Assembly: GCF_017656495.1 (NCBI RefSeq)
Contig: NZ_JACDNS010000002.1
Location: 62,001-126,000, forward strand
Origin: Thermococcus sp.
GTDB lineage: Archaea; Methanobacteriota_B; Thermococci; Thermococcales; Thermococcaceae
Direction: 5' to 3'
Length of the DNA stretch: 64,000 nucleotides
Both the position numbers and the translations under genes were made by a program. Below the pieces are notes generated by a model. The model made no database searches, was not told where the DNA came from, and was given only the letters and a program-made list of their open reading frames with translations. Below, piece after piece: positions 7,251-12,368 of the stretch (its first letter is position 1; each line of letters begins with the position of its first letter).

Positions 7251-7901
7251 ATGCCAATGTTCTTCAAGCCAGCTAGTGAAGAGAAGAAAAAAGTAGGTCT
7301 CATTGAAGAGCTTTCGCCATTAGTTGGTGAGTTAGAAGAGGGTAGCATGGCGGCTGTGGTAACTACTGATGCCCTTGCACAGGCAATTCTTCAGTATTCC
7401 TCCCTTGCAAACGCTCTAAACTCTGGAATAACAGCCTATTATCTTGAGCCAACTAATGGATTTTCTTTGAAGCTTTTAAGCAAGCTCTCTGAAAATACTG
7501 AAAATTTATTCTTGGGCAAAATTTACACTTTAGATGAACTCTCTTCGGCTTTGGAACTTGTTGGGGATAACTCCCTTGTCTTTGTCTCGAACTTCTCAAT
7601 TCTCGAAAATCAGTCGAGAGAAAAGCTAATCAAAATGAGAAGAACGGTAGATGAGAAAGGACTCTTCTTGATTTTATCTCACAACACTCTTGAAATAAAC
7701 GAACTGGACTTAAATTCTGAGTTTAGAAGGCTTTTTAACATTCCCGAGTTATTTGAGCATCTTTTAGTCTTAAGAACAAGTGGGTACAGAGGGCACTATC
7801 GCATGAATATTAGTGTCCTTAGAGCTCCACCAGAGTTCGTGAAAAATATTGGAGAGCACAGCATTCCAATTGATAAAAAAGCTAAGCTTTTCTTAATATA
7901 G
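7251..7901 (+). CDS. Uncharacterised soluble protein, 216 aa
   Basis: Mixed alpha/beta soluble protein. The run of hydrophobic strands (AAVVTTDALAQAIL, GITAYYLEP, SLVFVSNFSIL, GLFLILSHN) resembles a RecA-like fold in which the P-loop is missing; this is a weak inference from pattern only. A TATA-like element (TTATAAATA at about 7217-7225) is only some 25-30 bases from ATG 7251, so the transcript is probably leaderless. The in-frame TTG at 7248 is a less likely start. The 3' end overlaps the convergent ecfT gene by nine bases. Confidence 0.65.
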   Translation: MPMFFKPASEEKKKVGLIEELSPLVGELEEGSMAAVVTTDALAQAILQYSSLANALNSGITAYYLEPTNGFSLKLLSKLSENTENLFLGKIYTLDELSSALELVGDNSLVFVSNFSILENQSREKLIKMRRTVDEKGLFLILSHNTLEINELDLNSEFRRLFNIPELFEHLLVLRTSGYRGHYRMNISVLRAPPEFVKNIGEHSIPIDKKAKLFLI

Positions 7902-8651
7902 CTTTACATATCCAATTCCAAGCTGATACCTCGCATACAGAGCTAAGCCAAACAATAGAAACACAATAATTAGGGCAATATAATCTTTTCCTTTCATTTC
8001 AATTGTGTATAAGAAAGTTCTCTTCTTATTTGCCCCGAATGCTCTACTCTCTAGAGCTATGCTTAGTTCATGAGCAGTTTTTATGGATGCGATTATTAAA
8101 GGAATTAAAACTGGAACTGTCTTTTTAATCTTTGAGAAAAAGTTGCCTTTTTCGAGCTCAAGACCTCTTGATTTTTGTGCATCGATTATTGTTTGAGCCA
8201 AGTTAAAGAGAGTTGGAATATATCTCAGAGCTATTGTGAGAGTTAGTCCAATTTCATAGGGCATTTTAAGCTTTATGAAGCCTAAAATTAACTCTCTCTG
8301 AGTTGTTGTCATTAAAAGACCGAAAGTTATCATAGCCATAGATGCAAGTCTTAAAGCGTATCCTAACCCGATGAACAGTCCAAATGTCTTTGGCTCCAAA
8401 ATAAAAGGCCAGATAGCAATTGTTATAATTATTAGGGGAGTTAGTGGCTTTAACACCTTTATCTGCTCTTTAAAGCTAATCTTCCCAAGGAACCTAAGAG
8501 AAAGAGAGAGCAACGTAAAGAGAATAAAGAGCAAATACGGAGAATTGAAGAGAATCATTGCTAAAATTCCCAGAAGTGAGGAAAGTATCTTAACTCTTGG
8601 GTCTAAACGATGGAGGATTGAATCTCTCTCAACATAGAGATTGTACATCAT
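7893..8651 (-). CDS. ECF transporter transmembrane component (EcfT/BioN-like)
   Basis: A 252-residue membrane protein of the CbiQ/EcfT family, the scaffold that couples ABC ATPases to vitamin-binding S components. It has four to five hydrophobic segments and the long cytoplasmic region with the two conserved coupling motifs, here AQKSRGLEL and ALESRAFGA (both A-x-x-S-R-[GA] type). Its start overlaps the stop of the upstream ATPase gene by four bases (ATGA), so the two are translationally coupled. With BioY encoded 3 kb away, a biotin transporter (BioN role) is the likely use, though a shared T component serving other S proteins is possible. Confidence 0.85.
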   Translation of the reverse strand: MMYNLYVERDSILHRLDPRVKILSSLLGILAMILFNSPYLLFILFTLLSLSLRFLGKISFKEQIKVLKPLTPLIIITIAIWPFILEPKTFGLFIGLGYALRLASMAMITFGLLMTTTQRELILGFIKLKMPYEIGLTLTIALRYIPTLFNLAQTIIDAQKSRGLELEKGNFFSKIKKTVPVLIPLIIASIKTAHELSIALESRAFGANKKRTFLYTIEMKGKDYIALIIVFLLFGLALYARYQLGIGYVKLY

Positions 8652-9442
8652 GCTCTCATCCTCCTGAGAAGTGAAGTCACAAACTCATTAATGTTTCTCA
8701 CAAAGCCTACACTCAAACGCTCACTGATTTTTAGAAGTTCAGGCTTGTCTAGATCATAATTCCTCAAATCAAGCTGGAAAAATTCATTAATAGTACCATC
8801 AAAAACCTTAATCCCTTCATAGAGTAGAACAACTCTTTCAGCTAGCTCTAGAACGAGTTCCATATCGTGAGTTATTAGCATTATTCCGTGTCCTTTTTCC
8901 TTAAGTTTTCTGATGACTTCTTTTACACTTTCAGCACTCTTTGCATCTAAACCTGTTGTTGGTTCATCTAGGATGAGGTACTTTGGGTTCATAGCCAGCA
9001 TGCATGCAATTGCCAAACGCTGTTTTTCACCTCCACTTAAAGAATATGGGCTCCTATCCTCATAGCCTTTTAGGTTTACGGATCTTAATGCCCATTCTAC
9101 TCTTTTTTCAATTTCATCCTTACTTAATCCCAAATTTTTGGGACCAAATGCAACCTCTTTAAAAACATTTTCTTCAAAGAACATGTGCTCAGGATTTTGG
9201 AAAACATAGCCAACAATTCTGGAAAGCTCTGCAACACTAGCTTCTTTGGTATTTATTCCATCAACAATCACGTCTCCCTTTGTTGGCTTTAAAAGTCCAT
9301 TGAGGTGCTTTGCCAAAGTTGTTTTTCCAGAACCGTTAGGACCAACTAGGGCAAGGATTTCATTTTCAATAGTTAAGCTCACATCCTTTAAAGCAATTTT
9401 CCTACCTTCGTAAATATGCCAGAGGTTTTTGACTTCAATCAT
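8648..9442 (-). CDS. ECF transporter ATP-binding component (EcfA/BioM-like)
   Basis: A 264-residue ABC ATPase that powers vitamin or metal uptake. Visible motifs are Walker A GPNGSGKTT, Q-loop FQNPEH, signature LSGGEKQR, Walker B YLILDEPTTGLD and the H-loop THD. The NPEHMFFEENV segment after the Q-loop is characteristic of the EcfA/CbiO group. It is first in a two-gene operon with the T component. Only one ATPase gene is present, so the complex would use a homodimer, as in BioMNY systems. The upstream region is AT-rich without a convincing copy of the bioY operator. Confidence 0.87.
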   Translation of the reverse strand: MIEVKNLWHIYEGRKIALKDVSLTIENEILALVGPNGSGKTTLAKHLNGLLKPTKGDVIVDGINTKEASVAELSRIVGYVFQNPEHMFFEENVFKEVAFGPKNLGLSKDEIEKRVEWALRSVNLKGYEDRSPYSLSGGEKQRLAIACMLAMNPKYLILDEPTTGLDAKSAESVKEVIRKLKEKGHGIMLITHDMELVLELAERVVLLYEGIKVFDGTINEFFQLDLRNYDLDKPELLKISERLSVGFVRNINEFVTSLLRRMRA

Positions 9443-9514: not shown

Positions 9515-10891
9515 TCAATTACTTATTGTTTCAAGAACTGATGGGTCAATTGTCCACCATTCTTCAATTATCTCGTCACCTTTGAAGTAAATCTCGTATC
9601 TCAATGGGATTTGTTTTCCTTCTTCTGTTGTTACTATGACAATTGCTCTTATGCCGGTCATACCTTCTCCGCTCCTTGCAAGAGTTATATTGTATATCTC
9701 GACATTTGTTACGTTGTTTCCTGCCAAGAATTTGTTCCATGTTGCCTCTATATCACTTACTCCATTGTATGTGCCGTTGAGCGGTTCTCCTACCCAGTAG
9801 AGGGTTGAATTTTCAGCATTCTGCTGCATTAAAGCAGTTAGATTATTATTTTCTAATGCTTGCCAGTGTTTAAGGCCTCTTAATGAATAATCTAGCAGAA
9901 CATAGGCTTTCTTTACATTCATATAAGCCCTTCTCATATAGGGCAAAGCCTGTATATGCCCCCTAATTGGATGTCCATACTGCCAGCCTTTTTGATAGTG
10001 ATATTCTGCCAATGACTTGTATTCTTCTACTTGGGGCATTGTTGCATTTGTTATGTTGTACTGAGCAACACTCTCGTATATTTCATTGAATTTTTCGGTG
10101 TATCTGTTGTAAAGCATGTACCAGATGTAGTTCAGCATGGCGTAGTCAAAATATTCAACTTTTCTCTGAGGTGTGAATTCGAGGTTGCTTGTAATAATCT
10201 CTTTAAGTAGCTCTCTCCAATCATCTCCTTTGTATTTTGCGCTGTACTCTAGGGTCAATCCTGTTGCAAAGACTAGTCCTCTCCCAAATGTATATGTAAT
10301 GGCACTCGGCTTGTTATAGTCTGGGTTTCCTTGGGAATAACTAACGTCTGACTGTACCATTATTATTTTTGCGTCCTCTGGGAGATTAATCAGATAACCA
10401 TGGCTGGCAAGGTTGCTGTAATACCAGACGTCTTTTTCTACGTGATAGTCATAGTTTGAGTATCTCTGGGTTATTTCGACTCCTCCTGGCAGGGGAGTTT
10501 TCCAGACTCCACCATGCCATCCCCAGTTTGCGGCATGCACTTCTAGTACTTTTCCTGCTTTGACGAATTCTTCAATGTCTCCCATTTCTGGTGCAAGCTC
10601 ATCATAAAATGCTTGAGTCTGATCACTTTCTATGATAATCAAATCGTATTTATTTATGAGATCTGAAGCAGTTAAAGGTGCGAACTCAGAAGATGAAAGA
10701 ACATCATATGGAACACCGATTTCATCTAACATGTCTTCAACAGCCTTTGAGTTCCAAGCGTCAACATTCTTCAACACTAAAACTCGCTGGTTGCTATAAT
10801 TACTTTGAGCAGAAACTTCTGAAAAACTAATAAATCCAACGTTACTCGCTAGAAATAAGAATACAATCACTAAACTTGCTATTTTTTTCAT
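9515..10891 (-). CDS. Secreted protein with GATase-like and NTF2-like regions
   Basis: A 458-residue exported protein. Residues 1-28 form a signal peptide with a typical cleavage region (SEVSAQS). Residues 35-230 look like a flavodoxin/glutamine-amidotransferase-like Rossmann domain (RVLVLKN, YDLIIIESDQT, GKVLEVHAANWG) without a recognisable catalytic Cys. A helical middle section follows, and the last 110 residues resemble a SnoaL/NTF2-like cone fold ending EEWWTIDPS. Many N-x-S/T sites suggest surface glycosylation. Domain names are inferred from strand patterns, and no function is assigned. It is monocistronic. Confidence 0.7.
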   Translation of the reverse strand: MKKIASLVIVFLFLASNVGFISFSEVSAQSNYSNQRVLVLKNVDAWNSKAVEDMLDEIGVPYDVLSSSEFAPLTASDLINKYDLIIIESDQTQAFYDELAPEMGDIEEFVKAGKVLEVHAANWGWHGGVWKTPLPGGVEITQRYSNYDYHVEKDVWYYSNLASHGYLINLPEDAKIIMVQSDVSYSQGNPDYNKPSAITYTFGRGLVFATGLTLEYSAKYKGDDWRELLKEIITSNLEFTPQRKVEYFDYAMLNYIWYMLYNRYTEKFNEIYESVAQYNITNATMPQVEEYKSLAEYHYQKGWQYGHPIRGHIQALPYMRRAYMNVKKAYVLLDYSLRGLKHWQALENNNLTALMQQNAENSTLYWVGEPLNGTYNGVSDIEATWNKFLAGNNVTNVEIYNITLARSGEGMTGIRAIVIVTTEEGKQIPLRYEIYFKGDEIIEEWWTIDPSVLETISN

Positions 10892-10980: not shown

Positions 10981-11739
10981 TTAAGAGAAGAGATTGTGTT
11001 CTTTCAACTCTTTCATGAGATTAGCAAACAATTTTCGTGAAAACTCAAGAAGATTAATCTCTTTTCCAAGTTCTTTTTTTAAAGAAGTTGCGTTAAGCTC
11101 TTCTGGGACTTCATTATTAATGTTCACACCTATTCCAAGTATAAGAAAATCGACCATATCAAGTTCCCCTTCAGCTTCAACTAATATCCCAGAAACTTTT
11201 TTTCCATTAATAAAAACATCTCCAGCTTGGCTAACTTGGGGGACTAATCCATATTCTTGAATAGTTTTGGCAACTGCACGGGATGAGGGGATCAAAATTT
11301 TCTCAATCTCTGTGAGCTTAATCCTTGGTTTTAAGATTACAGAGAAGTACAAGCCACCTTTTTGAGATATCCATGACCTTTTTAGTCTTCCTCTTCCAGC
11401 AGTTTGCTCTTCTGCAATTATAAAAGTCCACTTTTCTTCTCCTTTTTCAGCGAGCTCTTTGGCAACGTTCATGGTTGAATCAACACTTAAGTAATAGTAG
11501 GCTTTGACATCTAGCTCCCAAGGATAGGGCTTATTGGGCTCTTTTAAAAGTTTATATCCTCTATGTGTTGATTCTATCTTGTAGCCAAGCTCAATAAGTT
11601 CTTTTACATGCTTCCACACAGCAACTCTTGAGATACCTAGTTTTGTCCCTATTTCATCACCTGAGACAATGTCATTTTCGCGAAGGATCTTTAAGAGCTC
11701 TCTTTTTATTCTGCTATCCTTAAGCACTTTTCTTGGCAT
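10981..11739 (-). CDS. BirA-like biotin repressor with a broken ligase motif
   Basis: A 252-residue protein of the biotin-protein-ligase family. Residues 10-60 form an HTH_11 winged helix (SGDEIGTKLGISRVAVWKHV), which makes it a group II, DNA-binding BirA. The biotinyl-adenylate loop GRGRLKRSW is present at 115-123. The catalytic KWPND motif is replaced by SQAGD at 170-174, so the essential lysine is a serine. It probably senses biotin and represses rather than ligates. It is divergent from bioY across a 104-base intergenic region carrying paired GTTAACC boxes. ATG 11739 is preferred to GTG 11748 on spacing. Confidence 0.82.
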   Translation of the reverse strand: MPRKVLKDSRIKRELLKILRENDIVSGDEIGTKLGISRVAVWKHVKELIELGYKIESTHRGYKLLKEPNKPYPWELDVKAYYYLSVDSTMNVAKELAEKGEEKWTFIIAEEQTAGRGRLKRSWISQKGGLYFSVILKPRIKLTEIEKILIPSSRAVAKTIQEYGLVPQVSQAGDVFINGKKVSGILVEAEGELDMVDFLILGIGVNINNEVPEELNATSLKKELGKEINLLEFSRKLFANLMKELKEHNLFS

Positions 11740-11786
11740 ATTCCTCACTTAATTTTACTATGCTTTGAGTATTAAAAAGCATTTTC

Positions 11787-11814
11787 GTTAACCATAAAAA
11801 TTTTAAAGTTAACC
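11787..11814. promoter_or_regulatory. Probable operator/promoter of bioY
   Basis: GTTAACC occurs at 11787-11793 and again at 11808-11814, exactly 21 bp apart (two helical turns). The boxes bracket the TATA-like stretch ATAAAAATTTTAAA, about 30-50 bp before bioY. GTTAAC is self-complementary and resembles half of the bacterial BirA box (TTGTAAACC). A dimeric BirA-like repressor bound here would block TBP. The site lies between bioY and the BirA-like gene and could regulate both. Confidence 0.6.
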
Positions 11815-11843: not shown

Positions 11844-12368
11844 ATGGCTGGAATGAAGGCAAAGGATATTGCATACTCAGCTTTATTCGCGGCTTTAACG
11901 GCAGTTGGGGCTCAAATAAGCATTCCAATTGGGGAAGTGCCAGCAACTTTGCAAGTTCTCTTCGTCCTGCTCAGCGGGTTGATTTTAGGGGCGCGTTTAG
12001 GTTTTCTAAGTCAGTTGATATACCTTCTGATGGGCGCTATCGGGCTCCCAGTTTTTGCTGGATTTAAAGGGGGATTTGTTTACCTCTATGGTCCAACGGG
12101 AGGCTATTTGATAGCTTTCCCAATAGCTGCATTTTTGGTTGGTCTGATAAGTGAGAGATATGAGAATCTAAAAGGCTATATCTTGGGTTCTTTAATTGGC
12201 ATTGGTGTTATCTATCTCTTAGGCTGGCTTAGACTGGGTTTCTACTTTGGAGGAAACTTTGGGAAAGCCTTTGCAGTGGGTGTTGCACCATTTGTGGTTA
12301 TTGATCTGATAAAAGCTGGGATTGCTGTGGTGGTTGCGGACAGGGTGAAAAAATCTGGAGTTATTTAA
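11844..12368 (+). CDS. bioY: Biotin transporter BioY (S component)
   Basis: A 174-residue membrane protein with about six helices and the BioY signatures: GEVPATLQVLFVLLSGLILGARLG near residues 30-55, LYLLMGAIGLPVFAGF-type helix, and GPTGGYLIAF. It captures biotin and feeds it to an ECF module, probably the T/A pair at 7893-9442. ATG 11844 directly abuts GGAGG, so ATG 11853 may be the true start. Its last codon overlaps the convergent MobA-like gene by four bases. The paired boxes upstream suggest repression by the BirA-like protein when biotin is plentiful. Confidence 0.9.
   Translation: MAGMKAKDIAYSALFAALTAVGAQISIPIGEVPATLQVLFVLLSGLILGARLGFLSQLIYLLMGAIGLPVFAGFKGGFVYLYGPTGGYLIAFPIAAFLVGLISERYENLKGYILGSLIGIGVIYLLGWLRLGFYFGGNFGKAFAVGVAPFVVIDLIKAGIAVVVADRVKKSGVI

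Follow-up and report, generated by a model that had tools for sequence, protein, structure and literature searches.

A BirA-type protein of the Thermococcaceae as a probable dedicated, ligase-inactive repressor of the biotin transporter gene bioY

BirA is the textbook example of an enzyme that doubles as a repressor, its corepressor being its own catalytic intermediate. The group II BirA proteins of E. coli, B. subtilis and S. aureus have in common a winged helix-turn-helix (HTH), a biotin pocket, the catalytic lysine and a palindromic GTTAAC-type operator at biotin genes, whilst the group I enzyme of P. horikoshii (PhBPL; 1wnl and others) lacks an HTH and carries the KWPND motif and BPL_C. 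In Lactococcus lactis, an HTH protein (BirA1) and an HTH-free ligase (BirA2) occur in one genome, and BirA1 both binds a GTTAACC-type site at bioY and is still a working ligase (PMC4861984). BirA itself, its operators and split BirA/ligase pairs have all been described before. Our literature search, which excluded Rodionov et al. 2002 (said to cover archaeal BirA sites), found no account of a clade of BirA-type repressors that is without KWPN and BPL_C and has a strictly co-inherited operator. The Thermococcus protein described here shares with group II BirA all of the features listed above, but it has neither KWPN nor BPL_C, is 252 aa long rather than about 320, and leaves ligation to a separate enzyme of the PhBPL type. 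It shares the catalytic-domain fold of PhBPL and, in contrast to L. lactis BirA1, it has no ligase motifs. It probably serves solely to repress bioY in response to biotin, without acting as a ligase, and would descend from a group II BirA that gave up its ligase function.

The window, that is, the whole 64,000-nucleotide stretch of Thermococcus sp. DNA that was analysed, contains the regulator gene amongst the following genes, the transporter components being assigned by profile matches:

7893-8651, minus strand: T component of an ECF transporter (CbiQ/BioN-like)
8648-9442, minus strand: ECF ATPase (EcfA/BioM-like), same cluster
10981-11739, minus strand: regulator gene, 252 aa from its ATG, with HTH_11 and BPL_LplA_LipB and without BPL_C
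11853-12368, plus strand: bioY, the biotin S component of the ECF transporter

The T component, ATPase and bioY surrounding the regulator (7893-9442 and 11853-12368) make up a complete ECF biotin transporter cluster, and the same cluster is found in T. gammatolerans (tg1801, tg1802 and tg1804; PMC3407056). A protein of 458 aa, which has a signal-like N terminus and no confident Pfam family, is encoded at positions 9515-10891, in the interval that separates the ECF genes from the regulator; it also lies beside a regulator remnant in another genome (G092, locus L216). The first ATG of bioY is at 11844, and the start at 11853 is better spaced from a GGAGG. For the regulator, a GTG at 11748, upstream of the ATG at 11739, would give 255 aa; the ATG is preferred because it lies downstream of a GAGG and agrees with the starts of orthologues. 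No bioB match over the cut-off was found in this genome, in which biotinyl/lipoyl domains are present, so that the cell probably must import biotin. Two LplA-like proteins are also encoded in this genome; one (L003) adjoins a gene for a radical-SAM protein that matches bioB weakly and the other (L004) is near a biotinyl/lipoyl-domain gene.

Within the regulator gene, the following features were located, all on the minus strand:

11551-11703: winged helix-turn-helix (HTH_11 profile match, E 7.5e-14), which holds the SRVAVWKH recognition segment
11122-11484: BPL_LplA_LipB domain with the biotin pocket (PF03099, 60 bits; AF2 model)
11371-11397: GRGRLKRSW biotin-binding loop, retained (sequence and orthologue comparison)
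11218-11232: SQAGD in place of KWPND, with K, W, P and N lost and Asp retained in this genome
11197-11199: codon of the retained catalytic lysine K181, equivalent to E. coli K183 and P. horikoshii K111 (orthologue comparison; PMC2384007)

Its HTH places the protein with group II BirA and apart from the HTH-free group I biotin protein ligases; in the recognition segment, S, R, V, W, K and H are invariant amongst 56 HTH-bearing BirA proteins, outgroups included. The AF2 model (pLDDT 93.7) aligns over its full length with SaBPL, its best fold match, and this confident model points to the same fold for the regulator; against the PhBPL catalytic domain, the rmsd is 1.5-1.8 Å in most entries, with about 36% sequence identity across the aligned segment. 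The protein falls below the NCBIfam BirA equivalog cut-offs, with 117 bits against 353 for the best PRK11886 model and 62.2 against 70 for TIGR00122. No match to BPL_C (PF02237) was found in the regulator, in contrast to the ligase paralogue of the same genome, and none of the complete regulators in the alignment has BPL_C, the position of E. coli R317 being missing with it. In the active site of PhBPL, the carrier protein is put in place by a movement of BPL_C loops (PMC2821413).

The initial annotation had seen SQAGD in place of KWPND at residues 170-174 of a protein that keeps its winged helix and GRGRLKRSW loop, and each of these observations was borne out: the residue numbers hold from the ATG at 11739 (173-177 from the upstream GTG), the protein contains no KWPND at another position, and the altered motif is common to orthologues, three of the same genus having SQAGD or NEAGD, which led us to reject a frameshift or sequencing error. 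Its further claim, that the catalytic lysine has been lost, was mistaken. In E. coli BirA, KWPND spans residues 172-176 and K183 stands seven residues beyond the motif Asp, a numbering that agrees with the literature; K183 lies in KLAGILVE, downstream of KWPND. The lysine needed for catalysis, said by the initial annotation to be that of KWPND in the P. horikoshii and E. coli enzymes, is placed by the published work inside KxAGxLVE (Lys183 of E. coli BirA and Lys111 of PhBPL; PMC2384007; lysine also PMC3048393), and PMC2384007 also states that KWPND makes no ligand contact. The K183 equivalent is kept in the regulator as K181 and in 45/45 orthologues. The case for loss of ligase function is accordingly built on the loss of KWPN together with BPL_C, and not on loss of the catalytic lysine.

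The loss of K, W and P extends to all of the family's regulators. In 45 of the 94 Thermococcaceae genomes sampled, the HTH paralogue is complete or nearly so; in two more (G047 and G052), it is interrupted by a contig edge. When motif positions were counted back from the catalytic lysine without gaps, none of the 45 orthologues had K, W or P of KWPND, 11/45 had N and 11/45 had D, as against 17/17 for all five residues in the ligases. The regulator of this genome is amongst the 11 with the motif Asp, the other 34 being without it. KWPND is present in 74 of 78 readable HTH proteins from named genomes, the four exceptions being those from Thermococcaceae, and in all ten sister-order HTH proteins examined. 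A second, HTH-free ligase with an intact motif, which the initial annotation had suggested looking for, is indeed encoded in the same genome (IKWPND and BPL_C), so the regulator is not its sole biotin protein ligase homologue. An HTH-free ligase is found in nearly every genome of the family, fragmentary assemblies apart, with KWPND in 16/16 of those whose sequence was examined.

In the phylogenetic tree, the regulators form one clade (100/100) and the Thermococcaceae ligases another (100/100), and the sister of the ligase clade is an HTH-bearing group II BirA from another family of the same class (95/95; family f3). This topology points to loss of the HTH in the ligase lineage and of the ligase parts in the regulator lineage. 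The regulator has a dN/dS of 0.11-0.22 and is therefore under purifying selection. It is present only where bioY is present (Fisher p 0.001, computed without regard to kinship) and in 40 of 42 loci the two genes are immediate neighbours in divergent orientation; at the two exceptions (L056 and L069), bioY lies 1.5-2 kb away on the same contig and the operator is still present. A third biotin protein ligase in a Thermococcus MAG (L050; G086:C59:6871-7656), with HTH and KWPND, 349 aa and a long branch in the tree, was excluded as not orthologous and is possibly a contaminant of the MAG.

The intergenic region between regulator and bioY contains two further elements:

11787-11813, no strand assigned: predicted operator palindrome GTTAACCATAAAAATTTTAAAGTTAAC, with half-sites at 11787-11792 and 11808-11813; the single site of this form in the genome
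11800-11807, plus strand: ATTTTAAA, probable bioY TATA box between the half-sites (promoter sequence)

The palindrome is best read as the binding site of the regulator. Wherever a genome has the regulator, GTTAAC-N15/16-GTTAAC flanks the TATA-like core of its bioY promoter, and none of the bioY promoters examined from genomes without the regulator has it. The AT-rich core itself (TTTTAAA) also occurs at several bioY promoters without a regulator. In 43/43 genomes with the regulator, 11-12 of the 12 half-site positions agreed, as against no more than 10 in the 21 bioY promoters that lack a regulator and typically 7-9 in shuffled sequences. One apparently regulator-less exception, G052, encodes the N terminus of a regulator at a contig edge. 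A pattern search of the 94 genomes returned 36 bioY-linked sites and four stray ones, and the reversed control gave two. At two loci (L043 and L076), the site has a variant right arm, which a regular expression for the promoters missed and the position score recovered. Since the operator is unique in this genome, the predicted regulon is bioY, perhaps with the regulator itself. Two genomes, G092 (L216) and G087 (L242), retain only a C-terminal remnant of the regulator, beside an intact bioY, and in these a shared deletion took with it one half-site of the operator as well as the greater part of the regulator gene.

From this arrangement we infer repression by a ligand-dependent dimer that has no ligase activity and may regulate its own gene. 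The winged helix would bind the palindrome around the bioY TATA box; with ample biotin, ligand would fill the preserved pocket, and the regulator would dimerise on the operator and block TBP/TFB binding, switching bioY off. When biotin is scarce, the operator would be freed and uptake would rise, the biotinylation of proteins being carried out throughout by the separate HTH-free ligase. The initial annotation had likewise proposed a biotin-responsive repressor separate from the ligase, and the second ligase, the orthologues, the synteny, the operator and the tree all agree with that proposal; the reason that it gave, loss of the lysine, did not survive. Two points stand against a ligase-inactive protein. 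The regulator of this genome keeps the equivalents of R118 and R121, the loop Trp, the adenine-side Asn, the motif Asp and the catalytic lysine, so that residual adenylation is possible on sequence grounds, and TIGR00121 (birA_ligase) still classes it as a ligase domain (131.6 bits, above the cut-off of 83.1, the match ending at model position 170 of 235).

The state of the pocket bears on which ligand is sensed. Equivalents of E. coli S89, T90, Q112, G115, W123, S125, G128, S134, K183, G186 and E190 are present in 45/45 regulators, and those of G204 and N208 in 44/44 that cover the position. On the phosphate side, R118 is kept in 40/45 regulators and R121 in 28/45, both being kept in 16/16 ligases; R118 is replaced by Ser in four orthologues of one genus (g3). 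The STN of the ligases is STM in 45/45 regulators (window 11470-11478, residues 88-90); this substitution lies within the biotin pocket, is characteristic of the clade and might change the contacts made with the ligand. Biotin itself is the likeliest ligand, with about an even chance, and biotinyl-5'-AMP the less likely candidate. The fuller proposal built on this, to which we give slightly under an even chance, is that of a one-component regulator sensing free biotin and not biotinyl-5'-AMP, which would have arisen when a BirA, duplicated or acquired, degenerated in complementary ways, the ligase dropping its HTH and the repressor dropping KWPN and BPL_C, such that repression is uncoupled from the catalytic cycle.

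Amongst the alternatives, the one that fares best, though we hold it to be unlikely, is a repressor that senses in trans: the HTH-free ligase would release biotinyl-5'-AMP, and the repressor would take this up as its corepressor. Adenine-side W123 and N208 are kept throughout, and R118 in most orthologues, even though the catalytic parts are gone, and B. subtilis BirA needs both biotin and ATP in order to dimerise (PMC4016012); the relaxation of R121 and the Ser at R118 in genus g3 speak against it. Biotin ligases also hold the adenylate tightly, and its transfer in trans would be slow. A poorer prospect still is a half-enzyme that makes and keeps its own biotinyl-5'-AMP and passes none to a carrier protein, because KWPN and BPL_C, with its carrier docking, are gone. 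This would fit the placing of the carrier by the BPL_C loops of PhBPL, and the retention of the lysine in all regulators and of the Asp in this one and 10 others, but the Asp has been lost in the remaining 34/45. By their PDB entry titles, PhBPL K111A and K111G were crystallised with biotinyl-5'-AMP and D104A with unreacted ATP and biotin (2dxt), the latter a hint that the Asp of KWPND supports, and is important for, adenylation. An ordinary bifunctional group II BirA with an odd motif and a working ligase would account for the kept lysine and pocket and for the TIGR00121 score, but it is very improbable given that KWPND and BPL_C are missing clade-wide and that nearly every genome, fragmentary assemblies apart, keeps a normal HTH-free ligase. 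Genuine decay is seen in the remnants of G092 and G087, but a decaying pseudogene can be all but dismissed here, given a gene intact in 45 genomes, its low dN/dS and a maintained operator.

About half of the family, this heat-loving archaeon included, probably splits BirA into a biotin-attaching enzyme and a dedicated repressor. Annotation pipelines are predicted to misname such regulator genes as biotin ligases. A natural lineage that has only the repressor half, and for which operator and partner ligase are known, would make it possible to test directly whether BirA-type repression needs adenylation.
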